Source of the DNA: Friedmanniella luteola
GTDB lineage: Bacteria > Actinomycetota > Actinomycetes > Propionibacteriales > Propionibacteriaceae
Reading direction: 5' to 3'
Length of the DNA: 64,000 nt
NCBI RefSeq assembly: GCF_900105065.1
Contig: NZ_LT629749.1
Coordinates: 3,596,001-3,660,000, forward strand
The position numbers were made by a program, and so were the translations under genes. This document shows positions 2,116 to 8,013 of this stretch, piece by piece; position 1 is the stretch's first letter; each line of letters begins with the position of its first letter. The notes under the pieces were generated by a model. The model searched no databases. It was not told where the DNA came from and saw only the letters and a program-made list of their open reading frames with translations.

Positions 2116-2228
2116 GGCGTCCCCGCACCGTCGGGGCGGAGACGTATCAGGGCTCCCCAGATCGCCTCCTGACCGGTACAACTGGGTGAGCGCGCCCGCG
2201 CGCCGCCCGAGCCACCGGAGAGCGAGCG

Positions 2229-4055
2229 ATGACCTCAGATCCCCCTGCCGGCCGCAGCCCCGGCCAGCGCCCGCCCCTGTCCGGTTTCGGCCCGGTCGAC
2301 ACCGCCGGCATGGACGGGTCGCCGCAGCGCAGCGCGCCGCCCGCCGACCTGCTGGAGCGCCACGACGGCCGCACGCTCGACCCCGCCACCGCGGTCCGCT
2401 CCGGCGGGCAGCCGCTGCAGGCCACGGTCTACCGGGGCAGCCGCCTGCTGGTCCGGCCGACGGCGCACGAGGACGCCGTGCTGGCCACGCTGACCGAGAT
2501 CGCCGGGAGCCGGTTCGGCCTGGACGTGCGGGTGGACCCCCTGGACGTGCGCCTCCGCGACCTGGCCCGCGCCGCCGGCATCGGCCCCGAGGAGCCGCAG
2601 CCGCTCGTGCTCCGGGTGGAGCTGCGGGCCCGCTACGACGAGGGCCCCGTCGGCCCGCCCGACGCCTGGCCGGTCCTGCAGGCGTTCCGGCACGCCTACC
2701 CCGCGGGCTCGCCCGAGCAGGCCAGCGTCCAGCTCGACCACGTCGTGACCCCGCACGCGGAGGACGGCGTCACCGCCAACCCGTACTGGAAGGTGCCCAG
2801 CGCGTCGGGCAACCCCTACTGGAAGGTGCCCGGCACGTCCGGCAACCCGTACTGGAAGGTGCCCAGCGGCAACCCCTACGTCGACACGGCGGGCGGCCTG
2901 GCCGAGTACGCCGCGCCCGGCTTCGGCGGCCGCACCCCCGTCGCCTGGCTGGGACCGGAGCCGGTGCAGAGCCCCCTGCCGCCCGGCCGCCGGCGCCCGG
3001 TGGTCGCCGTCCTGGACACCGGCATCGGCCGGCACTACTGGCTGCCCGAGGGCGAGGTGGTCGACCGCGCGCCGACGGTCGAGGGCCTGCGGATCGGGCT
3101 GACGGACCCGCGGACCGCTCCGGAGGACCCCGACGTCCGGAGCAACACCCTCGTGGGGGAGGTCGACCCGAGCGCGGGGCACGGCACCTTCATCGCGGGC
3201 CTCGTCCGGCAGAAGTGCCCCGACGCGAGGCTGCTGGCGGTCCGCGTCGTGCAGGGCGACGGGGTCGTCGCCGAGGCCGACCTGCTCGAGGCGCTGGGCC
3301 TGCTGTGGCTGCGCCAGGCGCTGGCGGTCCGCCACCACCGGCCGGACCAGCTGGTCGACGTCGTCTCGATGTCGCTCGGCTACTACCACGAGACGCCGGG
3401 CGACGCGGCGTTCGACCCCCTGCTGCTGGCCCCCGTCCGGGCGCTGGGCCGGCTCGGGGTCGTGGTCGTCGTCTCCGCCGGGAACGACGCCACCCTGCGG
3501 CCGATGTACCCGGCGGCCTTCGCGCCGCACCCCGGCGGTCTGGTCCCGGCGCCGCTGGCCGACGAGGTGCCGGTCGTCGCGGTCGGCGCCACCAACCCCG
3601 ACCGCACCGTCGCCCTGTTCTCGAACGAGGGCCCGTGGGTGCAGGCCCACCGGCCGGGCGCGTCGCTGGTCAGCACGCTGCCGGCGTTCGACGGGTCCCG
3701 CTCCCCCACCCTGGAGCGCCGGCCCACCGGGCTCGCGCCGCGGGCGACCATCGACCCCGACGACTTCAGCTCGGGTTTCGGGGTGTGGAGCGGGACCTCC
3801 TTCTCGGCACCCGTCCTGGTCGGGGAGATCGCCCAGCACCTGCAGGCGGCCGGGGTGCTGGCCGCCGACGACGTCGACCCGGCCGGGGCCGTGGCGCGCG
3901 GCTGGGCGGCGGTGACCGCCCGGGTGCCGAGCCTGGTGCGGCCGGGGCTGCCCGCGACCGGTGCGACGGGCGCGGGGCACGACGGCCCCGGCCGCGACGG
4001 GGTGGGGGCCGCCGCGGACGGCGGGCACACGGACGGGATCTGGGTCGGACGATGA
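2229..4055 (+). CDS. Cytosolic S8 subtilisin-like serine protease with NPYWKVP repeats
   Basis: Predicted subtilase with a complete catalytic triad: Asp263 in VVAVLDTG, His318 in GHGTFIAG and Ser524 in GTSFSAP. There is no signal peptide or membrane segment, so it should act in the cytoplasm, unlike most secreted subtilases. The ~180-residue N-terminal part has no family I recognise and ends in three exact NPYWKVP heptads plus a decayed fourth (residues 184-219), directly before the protease domain. The ATG follows a GGAGAG ribosome-binding site. The sigma factor begins 19 bp downstream, and two further genes follow on the same strand, so the protease probably belongs to one operon with a TPR-CHAT protein. 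The substrate is unknown; candidates are the neighbouring proteins. Confidence 0.85.
   Translation: MTSDPPAGRSPGQRPPLSGFGPVDTAGMDGSPQRSAPPADLLERHDGRTLDPATAVRSGGQPLQATVYRGSRLLVRPTAHEDAVLATLTEIAGSRFGLDVRVDPLDVRLRDLARAAGIGPEEPQPLVLRVELRARYDEGPVGPPDAWPVLQAFRHAYPAGSPEQASVQLDHVVTPHAEDGVTANPYWKVPSASGNPYWKVPGTSGNPYWKVPSGNPYVDTAGGLAEYAAPGFGGRTPVAWLGPEPVQSPLPPGRRRPVVAVLDTGIGRHYWLPEGEVVDRAPTVEGLRIGLTDPRTAPEDPDVRSNTLVGEVDPSAGHGTFIAGLVRQKCPDARLLAVRVVQGDGVVAEADLLEALGLLWLRQALAVRHHRPDQLVDVVSMSLGYYHETPGDAAFDPLLLAPVRALGRLGVVVVVSAGNDATLRPMYPAAFAPHPGGLVPAPLADEVPVVAVGATNPDRTVALFSNEGPWVQAHRPGASLVSTLPAFDGSRSPTLERRPTGLAPRATIDPDDFSSGFGVWSGTSFSAPVLVGEIAQHLQAAGVLAADDVDPAGAVARGWAAVTARVPSLVRPGLPATGATGAGHDGPGRDGVGAAADGGHTDGIWVGR
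2778..2885 (+). repeat. In-frame NPYWKVP heptad repeats inside the subtilase gene
   Basis: Three exact copies of NPYWKVP are separated by 4, 4 and 2 residues (S-A-S-G, G-T-S-G, S-G), followed by NPYVDTA as a degenerate fourth copy. At DNA level the unit AACCC(G/C)TACTGGAAGGTGCCC is nearly identical between copies, so the array arose by recent duplication or is kept homogeneous. It sits in the linker between the N-terminal region and the protease domain. A linear binding or cleavage motif is plausible. Confidence 0.9.
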
Positions 4056-4074
4056 GGGACGGGGGCGCGGGGCG

Positions 4075-4740
4075 ATGACGGGTGGGGGCACGGCGGAGGG
4101 GAGCTCCCCCGGGAGCGACGGCCGGCTGGGGTCCGCCGGCGGTGAGGAGGAGCCGGAGCGGCTGGCGGTCCGCGCGGCCCGGCTCTTCCTGGCCTACCGG
4201 GACGGTGACGCCGCCCGGATGGCCGACCTGGTCAGGCTGGTGACGCCGGTGCTCTGGCACACGGCGCGCGGCGCGCGGCTCGACGCCGCGACCGCCGAGG
4301 ACGTGCTGCAGTCGGTGTGGCTGGCCCTCGTGCGGCACGCCGACACCATCACCGAGCCGGTCGCCGTGCTGCAGTGGCTGGTGGTGAGCACCAAGCGCGA
4401 GTCCTGGCGGGTCTCGCGGGCCCAGACCCGCACCCGTCCCGAGGACTTCGAGGCCACCGACAGCGCCGCCGCGACCGTCGCCGAGGCGGTCCCCGTCCCG
4501 TCGGTGGAGGAGGAGGTCCTCGAGGCCGCCGCCGACTCGGCGCTGTGGCGGCACATCGCCCAGCTGCCCGAGCGCTGCCGGGCCCTGCTGCGGGTCATCG
4601 CCTTCGCCGACCGCCCCGACTACGCCGAGCTCTCCAAGGCCCTGGGCATGCCCCAGGGCAGCATCGGACCCACCCGGGGCCGCTGCCTGGCCAAGCTGCG
4701 CCTGGCCCTCGCCGCCGACCCCGCCTGGGAGACACCATGA
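4075..4740 (+). CDS. ECF-like sigma-70 factor of the protease/CHAT operon
   Basis: Predicted RNA polymerase sigma factor with regions 2 and 4 only. Region 2 contains AEDVLQSVWLALVRH and the following TKRESWRVSR segment. Region 4 contains LPERCRALLRVIAF, then a helix-turn-helix around YAELSKALGMPQGSIGPTRGRCLAKLR. The ATG chosen lies 19 bp after the subtilase stop and behind a G-rich Shine-Dalgarno-like stretch; an open frame continues upstream into the subtilase gene but reads as out-of-frame overlap. Its stop overlaps the next start as ATGA, implying translational coupling to the 171-aa protein. The target promoters are not apparent from this window. The neighbours suggest that protease activity controls it. 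Confidence 0.85.
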   Translation: MTGGGTAEGSSPGSDGRLGSAGGEEEPERLAVRAARLFLAYRDGDAARMADLVRLVTPVLWHTARGARLDAATAEDVLQSVWLALVRHADTITEPVAVLQWLVVSTKRESWRVSRAQTRTRPEDFEATDSAAATVAEAVPVPSVEEEVLEAAADSALWRHIAQLPERCRALLRVIAFADRPDYAELSKALGMPQGSIGPTRGRCLAKLRLALAADPAWETP

Positions 4741-5252
4741 CCGCCCCGGACCCTCACGACGACGCCCGTCTGGACGCCCTCGCCGCCCAGCCGGTCGACG
4801 CGACCGACCTCGCCGTCCTCGACGCGCTGCGCGGCCTGCTCGAGCGGGTCGACCCGGTGCCCGACGGGCTCGTCGAGCGGATCGAGTTCGAGCTCACGCT
4901 CGACGCCCTGCAGGCGGAGGTGGCCACCCTCACCCAGGTCGACCTGGTCGGCGCGGGCGCCCGGACCGCCACCGAGGCGGTCCGCACCATCACCTTCACC
5001 AGCGAGTCGGTGACGACGATGGTGACGCTCACCCCGCAGGAGGCCGGCGCCGTCCGGGTCGACGGCTGGGCCGCCCCCGGGGCCGGGGTCCGGGTGGAGC
5101 TGCTGCACGCCGGCGGCACCCTGGAGACCCGGGCCGACGAGGACGGCCGCTTCGTCTTCGAGCGCGTCCCGGTGGGGCTCGCGAAGTTCGTCCTGCACGT
5201 CCCGGTCGGCGACGGCGTCGCCACGGTGCTGAGCCCCGCCGTGGAGCTGTAG
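4737..5252 (+). CDS. Sigma-coupled 171-aa protein with carboxypeptidase regulatory-like C-terminal domain
   Basis: The N-terminal half (about residues 1-80) is acidic and helical, with the segment LLERVDPVPDGLVERIEFEL. The C-terminal ~75 residues, around VRVDGWAAPGAGVRVELLHAGG and GRFVFERVPVG, look like a carboxypeptidase-D regulatory-like beta-sandwich. No membrane segment, zinc motif or enzyme motif is visible. Start and preceding sigma-factor stop overlap by four bases. That arrangement is common for sigma/anti-sigma pairs, so an inhibitor or adaptor of the sigma factor is a reasonable guess, but no classical anti-sigma domain is recognisable. It could equally be a substrate or scaffold for the adjacent proteases. 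Confidence 0.75.
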   Translation: MTAPDPHDDARLDALAAQPVDATDLAVLDALRGLLERVDPVPDGLVERIEFELTLDALQAEVATLTQVDLVGAGARTATEAVRTITFTSESVTTMVTLTPQEAGAVRVDGWAAPGAGVRVELLHAGGTLETRADEDGRFVFERVPVGLAKFVLHVPVGDGVATVLSPAVEL

Positions 5253-5397
5253 CCGCGTCGTCGGCCCTGGCTCCGCTCGGACGCGGACCGGGCTCCTGGC
5301 CCCCGACGTCGTCGTCGCCCCGTCCGGCGGCGCCCGGGCGAGCGCACCCGGCCCGGGCCACCCTCGGCCCGCCGCCGAGCCCTCACCCGACCGACCC

Positions 5398-8013
5398 ATG
5401 TACGAGCGCGCAGTTCAGCGCCAGGATGGGCAGGTGCTCCCCCAGGCCGCCGCCGCTCACCGCCGGGCGCAGGCGCAGTGCGACCGGGGGCGCTTCGACC
5501 TCGCGCACCGCGGTCTGCTGCGGGCGCTCGACCTGCTGGACCGGTCCCCGGAGCCCGCCGCCGAGGTCCGGGCCGTCCGGGTGCGGGTGCTGATGACGCT
5601 CGCCGTGGTCGAGGAGGAGACGACGGGCGACGGTGGCTCTCGGCTGCAGGACGCCCGCCGGCTGGTCGAGGGCGTCGACGACGCCGAGCTGCGGTTCGCC
5701 GTGCACAACGCCGCGGCGACCCGGGCCCTGCGCCGCGGCGACCACCCGGCGGCGCTGGCGGAGTTCGCGGCCGCCGAGCGGCTGCTGGCCGCCGCCTCCC
5801 CGCGGGACGCGGCCATCCTGCACCTCAACCGCGGCAACCTGGCGCTGCAGCGCCTGGACCTCCCGGCGGCCCGGCGGGACCTCGAGCGGGCCGTGCAGCT
5901 CACCACCGGCGCCGAGGACGCCGGCCAGCGCTCGGTCGCGTTCATGGCGGCGCACAACCTCGGCTACCTCGAGCACCTCCGCGGCAACCTGCCGCGGGCG
6001 CTGCAGCTGATGGACGAGGCCGCGACCCTGTCGGCGGGGACCTCGCTCGCCATCTCGGGCCTGGACCGCGCCCGGGTGCTGATCGAGGCCGGCCTCACCG
6101 ACGCCGCCGACGCCGTCCTGGCCCGGGCCGAGCAGGAGTTCCGCCGGGGCCGGCTGGCCCACGAGCGCGCCGAGACCGAGCTGGCCCGCGCGGACTGCGC
6201 CCTGCTCGGCGACCGGCTGGCCGACGCCCGGGCGCTGGCCGGGTCGGCCCGCACCCGGTTCGCCCGGCGCGGTCACGACCGGTGGCGCCGGGTCGCCGAG
6301 CTCACCCTGCTGACCGCCGACCTCGCCGACGGCCGGCCACCCGCCCGCCTGCTCGGTCCGGCGCGGCGGCTGGCCGAGGAGTTCGCCGCCCAGGACCTGG
6401 AGCTGCCCGCGCGCACCGCCGCCCTGCTCGGCTGCGCCGCGCTGACCGCGCTGGGCCGGCCCGCCGAGGCGCGCGCCTGGTTCGCCGGCCTGCACCCCAT
6501 CGGCCGGACGGACCCCATCGGCCTGAAGCTGCAGCAGCGGGTGGTGGCCGCCGAGATCTCGCTGGCCGAGCACCAGGCCGCCGCCGCCCGCAGCCAGGTG
6601 CGGCTCGGGCTGACCGAGCTGAGCCGGCACCAGGCCCAGTTCGGCAGCCTCGACCTGCAGACCGCGGGTGCGGTGCACGGCCGCCGGCTCGTCGCCCTCG
6701 ACCTGCGGCTGGCGCTGGCCGCCCGCCGGCCCGCCGCGCTGTTCAACGCCGTCGAGCGCGGCCGGGCGGTGTCACGGCGGCTGACGGCGGTGACGCCTCC
6801 GGCGGACGCCTCGGAGCCGGCGCTGGCCGAGCTGCGGCAGGTCACCGACGCGCTGCGGACCCTCGGGGACGACCCGGCCGAGCGCGCGTCCGTCGTCGCC
6901 CTCCGGCAGCGCAGCGCCGAGCTGTACGGCCAGCTCAACGCGATCGCGTGGCGGGCGGTGGGGGCCGGCGCGGTGGTGCACGCCGCGCCGATGGCCACCG
7001 TCGCGGAGCAGGTGGAGGCCCAGGGCAAGGTGCTCGTCAGCTACGTCGTCGCCGACGGCCGCTGGTCCGCCGTCGTGCTCGGCCGGGACCGGCCCCGCTT
7101 CGTGGACCTGCCCGGCGACGCCCGGACCGTGGAGCTGTCCCGCCGGGCGCAGGCCGACCTCGACGTCCTCGCGCTGGGCGGCGTCCCGGCAGCGGTGCGG
7201 GCGGCGGTGGAGCAGTCCCTGCGCCGGTCGCTGGCCGTCCTCGACGCGCAGCTGGTCGGGCCGCTGCGGCTGGCGGACGAGGCCCTCGTCGTCGTGCCGA
7301 CCGGCCCCACCTCCACCCTGCCCTGGACCTGCCTGCCCAGCCTGCGCGGGCGGCCGGTCGAGGTCTCGCCAACGGCGACGTCGTGGCTGGTCGGCGGCCG
7401 CGGGGGCACGGCCGAGGGCCCGGTCCGGCTGGCCGCGCTGGCCGGGCCGGGCCTGGTCGAGGCGAGCGCGGAGGTGCACGAGGTCGCCGCGGCGTGGGGC
7501 GCGTGGGCGGAGACCAGCACCGCCACCGGGGCGGACGCCACCCGCGCCCGGCTGACCGCGGGCCTGGGGTCGGCGACGGTGCTGCACGTCGCGGCGCACG
7601 GTTCGCACCAGCGGCAGAGCCCGCTGTTCTCCTCGCTGCAGCTGGCCGACGGGGCGCTGTTCGCCTACGAGGTGGAGGCGGTCGCCCCGCACGTCGTGCT
7701 GTCCGCCTGCGAGCTCGGCCAGGCGACCACCCGGCCGGGGGACGAGGCCCTCGGCTGGACGCGGGTGCTGCTGCAGCTCGGCACCCGGTGCGTCGTCGCC
7801 GGGGTCAGCCAGGTGGCCGACGACCGGGCCCGGGAGGTGATGGTCGCCTACCACCGCCGGCTCGCGGCGGGCGACGACGCCGCCACCGCCCTCGCGGGCG
7901 CCACCGAGCACGGGACGCCCGTCCCCTTCGTCTGCTTCGGGACGTCCTGGCGGGCGGTCCCCCCACCGGCGCAGCTCCCCGAGCCGGCCCAGGTGGCGCT
8001 GGCGGCGGGCTGA
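5398..8013 (+). CDS. TPR-CHAT caspase-like protein
   Basis: An 871-residue protein. About residues 20-430 are Ala/Leu/Arg-rich paired helices of TPR type (for example HLNRGNLALQRLDLPAARRDLERAV). The C-terminal ~200 residues are a CHAT domain of the caspase/separase clan, with predicted catalytic His734 in LHVAAHGSH and Cys771 in VLSACELGQ. It should therefore be a cytosolic cysteine protease or a signalling relative. A later in-frame GTG at 5434 behind GGATGGG is an alternative start. It lies 145 bp after the 171-aa gene on the same strand, so co-transcription is likely but not proven. TPR-CHAT proteins are known as partners in type III-E CRISPR (Craspase) and other immune modules; here no CRISPR gene is near. 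Confidence 0.85.
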   Translation: MYERAVQRQDGQVLPQAAAAHRRAQAQCDRGRFDLAHRGLLRALDLLDRSPEPAAEVRAVRVRVLMTLAVVEEETTGDGGSRLQDARRLVEGVDDAELRFAVHNAAATRALRRGDHPAALAEFAAAERLLAAASPRDAAILHLNRGNLALQRLDLPAARRDLERAVQLTTGAEDAGQRSVAFMAAHNLGYLEHLRGNLPRALQLMDEAATLSAGTSLAISGLDRARVLIEAGLTDAADAVLARAEQEFRRGRLAHERAETELARADCALLGDRLADARALAGSARTRFARRGHDRWRRVAELTLLTADLADGRPPARLLGPARRLAEEFAAQDLELPARTAALLGCAALTALGRPAEARAWFAGLHPIGRTDPIGLKLQQRVVAAEISLAEHQAAAARSQVRLGLTELSRHQAQFGSLDLQTAGAVHGRRLVALDLRLALAARRPAALFNAVERGRAVSRRLTAVTPPADASEPALAELRQVTDALRTLGDDPAERASVVALRQRSAELYGQLNAIAWRAVGAGAVVHAAPMATVAEQVEAQGKVLVSYVVADGRWSAVVLGRDRPRFVDLPGDARTVELSRRAQADLDVLALGGVPAAVRAAVEQSLRRSLAVLDAQLVGPLRLADEALVVVPTGPTSTLPWTCLPSLRGRPVEVSPTATSWLVGGRGGTAEGPVRLAALAGPGLVEASAEVHEVAAAWGAWAETSTATGADATRARLTAGLGSATVLHVAAHGSHQRQSPLFSSLQLADGALFAYEVEAVAPHVVLSACELGQATTRPGDEALGWTRVLLQLGTRCVVAGVSQVADDRAREVMVAYHRRLAAGDDAATALAGATEHGTPVPFVCFGTSWRAVPPPAQLPEPAQVALAAG

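Follow-up and report, generated by a model that had tools for sequence, protein, structure and literature searches.

A conserved actinobacterial operon of a subtilase, an ECF sigma factor, a small two-domain protein and a TPR-CHAT protein as a possible intracellular protease relay

The window analysed here, a stretch of 64,000 nucleotides from Friedmanniella luteola, holds a same-strand operon of four genes that encode a subtilase (S8), an ECF-type sigma factor (SIG), a small protein of 171 residues (ADP) and a TPR-CHAT protein (CHAT), with catalytic residues that are intact as judged from open reading frames, profiles and alignments (Table 1). By Pfam, the locus is flanked by a Na+/H+ antiporter gene on one side and by trpS on the other, a CNNM/CBS protein being a further immediate neighbour; trpS adjoins CHAT in loci L003-L006 too. 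An earlier, sequence-only reading had described the four open reading frames, their strand and a four-base (ATGA) coupling of SIG to ADP, and re-derivation of the coordinates agrees with all three. The intact subtilase triad and CHAT His/Cys pair that it reported, along with the residue numbers Ser524 and Cys771, proved correct in alignments of 44 S8 and 95 CHAT sequences. The tandem repeat of S8, the invariant arginine of ADP and the promoter-like motif upstream were absent from that account.

Table 1. Features of the operon and of its promoter-like motif; positions are those of the window unless a genome coordinate is given.
Feature	Position	Strand	Basis or remark
Promoter-like motif GTATCA-N16-CTCCT, 58 nt upstream of the S8 start	2144..2170	+	Motif in upstream regions
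S8 subtilase, 608 aa	2229..4055	+	ORF, Peptidase_S8, alignment, AlphaFold2 model
S8 N-domain, aa 39-175, putatively propeptide-like by element order	2343..2753	+	AlphaFold2
Tandem peptide NPYWKVP(SAS/GTS)G, three copies and a partial copy, aa 184-217, disordered linker	2778..2879	+	Sequence, model
S8 Arg235, in the GGR-x-P-V that follows the repeat, another candidate P1-Arg site	2931..2933	+	Alignment
S8 catalytic Asp263	3015..3017	+	Alignment
S8 catalytic His318	3180..3182	+	Alignment
S8 catalytic Ser524	3798..3800	+	Alignment
SIG, ECF-type sigma factor, 221 aa	4075..4740	+	TIGR02937, PDB profile matches; frame open from 3961
ADP, 171 aa, candidate anti-sigma-like protein	4737..5252	+	ORF, alignment, model; ATGA overlap with SIG
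ADP Arg76, invariant, low-confidence inter-domain linker, candidate cleavage site	4962..4964	+	Alignments, model
TPR-CHAT protein, 871 aa	5398..8013	+	ORF, PF12770, family profile
CHAT catalytic His734	7597..7599	+	Alignment
CHAT catalytic Cys771	7708..7710	+	Alignment
Further motif sites in the window genome (L164-L167)	G000:C1:1180112, 1553993, 3547079, 3677992		Two precede small-secreted-protein-like genes

SIG matches the sigma70-ECF model TIGR02937 (E 1.3e-13; 50.9 bits against a cut-off of 42.9), which places it among the ECF sigma factors as had been claimed, and its profile matches SigH, SigE and SigW in the PDB; with Pfam Sigma70_r2 it scores 23.6, marginally below the cut-off of 24. 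The CHAT protein matches PF12770 (E 8.7e-21; 75 bits against a cut-off of 24), and His734 and Cys771 are present in 94 of 95 aligned sequences, the remaining row being a gap; domain and dyad together identify it as a CHAT-domain cysteine protease. The TPR part of its earlier description holds at the level of the family, the family profile matching TPR proteins strongly, while the window protein taken alone gives TPR matches below threshold (E 0.014 and weaker).

The subtilase itself matches Peptidase_S8 (E 1.2e-17), and its triad Asp263/His318/Ser524 is invariant in 44/44 sequences. The AlphaFold2 model shows well-predicted blocks over residues 41-170 (pLDDT 87-97), a linker at 177-239 with pLDDT below 50 and then the catalytic domain. 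Foldseek matches the model to subtilisins, with a few alignments of about 500 columns that include PCSK9 and pro-subtilisins, at TM-scores that are low by query length (0.25-0.39 among the matches listed). Pfam found no I9 propeptide domain in the window's S8, and no hydrophobic N-terminal stretch or export signal was seen in it by eye. From the modelled order of its elements, S8 may be a zymogen shut by its N-domain. Position 235, within the linker, is arginine in 39 of 44 sequences, lysine in 2, threonine in 2 and leucine in 1.

A check on whether the four families co-occur in relatives had been suggested, and both gene order and co-occurrence are kept. CHAT relatives (E 1e-5) are present in 34 of 77 genomes, the window genome counted. 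Among 36 larger stretches around CHAT matches, the order S8-SIG-ADP-CHAT is found in 12 and SIG-ADP-S8-CHAT in 4, and all four genes stand in other orders, often with a divergent S8, in another 12; the remainder comprise S8-CHAT without SIG-ADP (4), S8 with CHAT and SIG but no ADP found (2) and CHAT alone (2). In the four genomes with S8-CHAT, the SIG-ADP pair lies elsewhere, still together in 4/4. A search of the genome contigs with SIG gave at least 584 confirmed matches, and in the best 80 of these ADP directly follows SIG in 80/80 loci. These best 80 comprise 52 loci of the order S8-SIG-ADP-CHAT and 11 of the order SIG-ADP-S8-CHAT (63 with all four genes in two orders), 11 of SIG-ADP-CHAT without S8 and 6 that are otherwise arranged or truncated; they overstate uniformity because they hold the SIGs closest to the query, and at least four of them (L068, L069, L070, L111) appear to overlap the CHAT-match genome set. 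More widely, of 293 genomes from the order 131 have SIG (E 1e-45), and of 394 genomes sampled from the class 68 have ADP (E 1e-12). In 16 stretches around distant ADPs, SIG adjoins ADP in 16/16 and all four families are present in 9; the other 7, with neither S8 nor CHAT, consist of six 17-kb stretches and one (L273) at a contig start. The module is thus not a chance neighbourhood. A Nitriliruptorales locus (L116, 35-11085) has one SIG beside three genes for ADP and two each for S8 and CHAT, in the order S8-ADP-CHAT-ADP-S8-CHAT-SIG-ADP.

The loci without S8 show that ADP and CHAT may persist with no S8 close by. Of these 11 SIG-ADP-CHAT loci among the best 80 of 584, 8 have a divergent trypsin-fold protease upstream, and in two more (L096, L139) neither a subtilase nor a trypsin-fold protease was found within about 10 kb on each side; L119, with merely 0.6 kb of upstream sequence, is not counted as protease-less. 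Relatives of the trypsin-fold protease are found in 18 loci. As a core part of the module it was rejected, matches at E 1e-15 being present in 3 of 77 relatives and absent from the window genome.

ADP has no Pfam or NCBIfam match above threshold, CarboxypepD_reg being a sub-threshold one (E 5e-4). Its AlphaFold2 model, from 66 sequences and with a mean pLDDT of 90, predicts helices at 9-73 and strands at 83-165, that is, a three-helix N-domain and a beta C-domain joined by a linker whose block 71-80 has a mean pLDDT of 53. Arg76 lies within this linker and shows zero entropy in three overlapping sets (66/66, 27/27 and 95/95); by reading, it is also present in 16/16 distant ADP relatives. The flanking columns are variable and gapped, the preceding residues are mostly small or hydrophobic, and in 65 of 66 sequences the arginine is followed by G, S, A or T. 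An invariant arginine in a loose linker between two domains has the look of a possible protease site, and a folded-linker-folded design with such a residue is what would be expected of a cleaved sigma inhibitor, for which ADP is a candidate. For a putative anti-sigma role of ADP the data are those of linkage: SIG and ADP are adjacent in 80/80 of the best 80 of 584 loci and in 4/4 when unlinked from S8-CHAT. Partial correlations failed to split the halves of ADP into a SIG partner and a CHAT partner. Searches of the PDB, which we take to include Csx30, gave no significant relative of ADP by profile and no Foldseek fold match, to an anti-sigma factor or otherwise, at E 0.001; no Csx30 stood among the chains matching the ADP profile at E 5 or among the 50 fold matches listed.

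If CHAT cuts after Arg76, the sigma-binding half of ADP would be split from the beta half. The cut could instead be made by the subtilase, acting after arginine in a kexin-like manner, with TPR-CHAT activating or scaffolding S8, or with the two in reverse order. S8 is intact and adjacent, and the conserved GGR in its own linker could be a self-processing site; the 11 loci of SIG-ADP-CHAT without S8 among the best 80 of 584, L096 and L139 included, argue against such a role, and we consider it somewhat unlikely. It is less likely still that ADP acts by a conformational change, with no cleavage and with Arg76 as a structural or binding residue. Invariant residues are usually structural, and D39, F87, W111, G137 and P167 of ADP are invariant too, but Arg76 sits in the lowest-confidence block of the model, between variable neighbours and beside indels.

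The linker of S8 carries a tandem peptide in 78 of 102 S8 proteins by automatic scan, with a period of 6 residues in 52 and of 7 in 15 (67 of 78 together). Of the 24 without an array, 12 represent a shorter S8 type that comes from two further families of the order, 3 are truncated by the start of a contig or stretch (L078, L082, L116), 5 have few, degenerate or spaced copies by eye (L035, L037, L053, L069, L085) and 4 have none that is clear (L044, L050, L058, L147). Among S8 proteins beside distant ADPs, one of nine (L275) has an array and eight do not. Repeat-less, shorter S8s with a CPATEP-like motif ahead of the catalytic domain are seen in L052, L054-L057 and L059-L065.

Of the changes that separate copies within an array, 328 are synonymous and 30 nonsynonymous, where a nonsynonymous share of 74-77% is expected; detection by amino-acid periodicity favours a synonymous excess, the S8 proteins with an N-domain that it missed being few. 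The copies are therefore held alike at the amino-acid level. After identical and single-copy arrays were dropped, 76 remained with 61 units, or 60 without the L073 array, which lies outside the linker. Of these 60 units, 55 contain an aromatic residue, all 60 contain proline or glycine, and 6 contain lysine or arginine. G019, a genome with two S8-CHAT loci, bears a different tag in each; the copies of the second tag are spaced and were read by eye. Elsewhere in the window genome, beyond the three S8 copies, there is a single one-mismatch match, in a substrate-binding-lipoprotein-like gene, which was judged to be chance. When CHAT, ADP and SIG were searched for the repeat motif as a mimic for binding or cleavage, a locus's own unit scored no higher than others. 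The repeats are also unlikely as the CHAT cleavage site if CHAT is Arg-specific, since 6 of 60 units have K or R.

The distances between repeats agree more closely with those of the TPR-CHAT protein than with those of the S8 that carries them. In trimmed distance matrices of 66 loci, from which shared ancestry is not fully removed, the rank correlation with the repeat is 0.58 for the TPR part, 0.55 for the CHAT domain, 0.53 for ADP, 0.46 for SIG, 0.33 for the S8 N-domain and 0.28 for the S8 catalytic domain, so that ADP comes nearly equal to TPR-CHAT. Given the S8 catalytic domain and SIG, the values are 0.41 for TPR, 0.36 for CHAT and 0.33 for ADP.

Tags are also carried by the trypsin-fold protease. 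Loci of the Cellulomonas type that lack S8 have a divergent trypsin-fold protease with long PFTE arrays, and in L091 (Knoellia sinensis) the unit GWGDGI occurs six times in S8 and four times in a non-homologous trypsin-fold protease. This is the sole match among 1242 pairings of S8 units with trypsin-fold proteases (units of 69 loci by 18 proteases). No tag is common to both proteases in seven other loci that combine an S8 array of period 8 or less with a trypsin-fold protease, nor in L143 (period 9). A PFTE-array protease divergent from SIG is found in L124 (7973-9718) and in L102, L106, L113, L115, L126 and L127; NAL1_N is a sub-threshold match in one of the two that were scanned. A wider use of PFTE arrays was not borne out in seven genomes with or near the Cellulomonas type: six have one cluster each, that of G311 spread over two contig ends, and the seventh has none, its S8 bearing a related, different unit.

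The covariation, the tag common to a second protease and the near absence of K and R in the units argue for the array, in its disordered linker, as a multivalent docking tag that TPR-CHAT may read. We would tentatively go further and propose that the tandem peptide is a lineage-specific address which enrols an intracellular protease of any fold into a TPR-CHAT relay, tag and TPR reader diversifying together as in self/non-self recognition. Such lineage-own sequences might insulate one system from another. The array could also be a homotypic assembly element whose copies pair with one another or with those of other proteases. The near-identity of copies within an array and the presence of GWGDGI in both proteases of L091 would suit this, but units such as PFTE, NPVHDP and PYWDPV are proline- or charge-rich and presumably poor for stacking, and the repeat distance follows TPR-CHAT, which makes homotypic assembly an improbable reading. 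RRNPP and arbitrium signalling work by short signal peptides that bind a TPR domain, and repeats freed to act in this way would account for multi-copy, hypervariable units of mostly 6-7 residues (67 of 78 arrays) beside a partner with TPRs, but we hold this to be very unlikely, as K or R in 6 of 60 units leaves no common trypsin-like site between copies and inspection of the window's S8 by eye revealed no export signal.

The promoter-like motif upstream of S8 recurs in relatives: of 116 upstream regions, that of the window included, 54 hold it in the form GTATC-N17-CTCC, against 0-1 in each of three shuffles, and 60 hold the relaxed form GTATC-N17/18-CTCC on either strand. Many Intrasporangiaceae loci have a second copy toward the divergent side, and in L225 and L226 (from the genomes of L092 and L121) a trypsin-fold protease gene lies downstream of the divergent-side motif. 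The window genome has 5 motif sites against 0 for the control; they precede S8, two secreted-protein-like genes and a PLP-dependent decarboxylase-like gene, with one site before no clear gene (names given by reading the sequence, with no search). Among the part of the matches covered in relatives, related proteins recur downstream of the motif in the groups L159/L193, L161/L171/L173, L176/L190 and L208/L219. Within the genus, seven genomes that bear SIG have 34 matches against 8 for the control, and six shown to lack SIG have 11 against 10 (Fisher p 0.036 against the SIG-bearing set); with G013 and G015, chosen by their lack of a CHAT match, added to the latter six the count is 14 against 14 (p 0.009). 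Over 16 SIG-bearing genomes the count is 85 against 31, and in G019, with 3 against 6, there is no excess. Many genomic matches are thus due to chance, and SIG may use GTATCA-N16-CTCCT promoters.

Taken together, the conserved module, the linker arginine of ADP, the linker of S8, the covariation of the repeat and the motif favour control of an ECF sigma factor by an intracellular protease relay that has no CRISPR effector among its immediate neighbours, a reading to which we give a little less than an even chance. At rest, the helices of the ADP N-domain would hold SIG, and the N-domain of the subtilase would keep it shut. A signal sensed by the TPR part would lead CHAT to cut after arginine, in ADP at Arg76 and probably also in S8 at Arg235, which would free the catalytic domain; the freed subtilase might then finish ADP or other targets. 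SIG, once freed, would transcribe its own operon and a small gene set from the putative promoters. The sequence-only reading had cast the locus as a proteolytic transcription switch, and it is partly supported: the conserved module and the folded-linker-folded ADP with its invariant arginine speak for it, with contact, cleavage and a part in defence as hypotheses.

The closest known parallel is Craspase of type III-E CRISPR, in which a TPR-CHAT protease cleaves the small inhibitor Csx30 and thereby relieves the ECF sigma factor CASP-sigma (PMC10028731). Both systems have a TPR-CHAT protease and an ECF sigma factor, along with a small protein that in the window module is a candidate inhibitor. 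Csx30 is cut at a site described as non-conserved (PMC11106740), in contrast to the invariant Arg76 of ADP, and the window module adds a subtilase with a peptide tag. The TPR-CHAT protein is not of the Csx29 family (NCBIfam NF041237; 20.2 bits against a cut-off of 300), no Cas7-11 (gRAMP) is among the immediate neighbours of the window operon that Pfam named, and no kinship with the Craspase partners was found beyond CHAT, TPR and ECF sigma factors in general. The same logic of protease, anti-sigma factor and ECF sigma factor is seen in CalpL/CalpT/CalpS of type III CRISPR, where a Lon protease cuts the anti-sigma factor and the ECF sigma factor is freed; that protease is a Lon-SAVED protein driven by cA4, and neither CHAT nor a subtilase belongs to the system in the available parts of the two papers (PMC11229360, PMC11417357). 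A type III-B SAVED-CHAT protease acts through a proteolytic cascade (PMC11229360). The sensor there is SAVED, whereas the window module and its relatives have TPRs with a subtilase or a trypsin-fold protease. The cascade is said, after Steens in 2024, to run from SAVED-CHAT to PCaspase, the second protease being of the caspase fold. The EACC2 conflict systems likewise link a predicted caspase-clan protease to an ECF sigma factor and a TPR protein (Kaur 2021; PMC8195603). They differ in having separate caspase and DUF1822 TPR proteins, and the available part of that paper mentions neither a subtilase (the word 'subtilisin' occurs 0 times) nor a protein like ADP.

By its parts the module is a variant of a known protease-sigma logic, and the tag seems new; among the open-access papers listed by literature searches, none describes this operon in its title or abstract start. 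We know of sigma-inhibitor cleavage by a CHAT or SAVED-Lon protease from CRISPR-linked systems only so far. The same logic of sigma factor, inhibitor and cleavage now seems to stand apart from CRISPR in many actinobacteria, soil species included, and the CRISPR-linked forms would then seem to be part of a broader group of switches. To this logic the relay would add another protease, together with a tag kept constant within a protein and replaced between lineages, much like private docking codes. With its 60 natural units it offers a testable pair of tag and reader, and there are candidates for both the cleavage residue and the promoter. Should the reading of addresses prove true, bacterial signalling would have gained a new class of code for protein-protein recognition, one linked to a protease-sigma switch that works without CRISPR. 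The circuit would be a new immune one if its trigger is infection, and a new stress circuit if it is not.

A search for nearby defence genes had also been suggested. With the four operon proteins, PADLOC gave no match to a system model, and S8 alone scored, with a generic 'subtilase' profile (E 4e-6) and weakly with IetS (E 0.07); the neighbours are the antiporter, trpS and CNNM/CBS genes named above. The antiporter (76-2115) carries a C-terminal zf-UBP zinc finger (Pfam, E 5e-8), a fusion that we judge unusual for a bacterial transporter.
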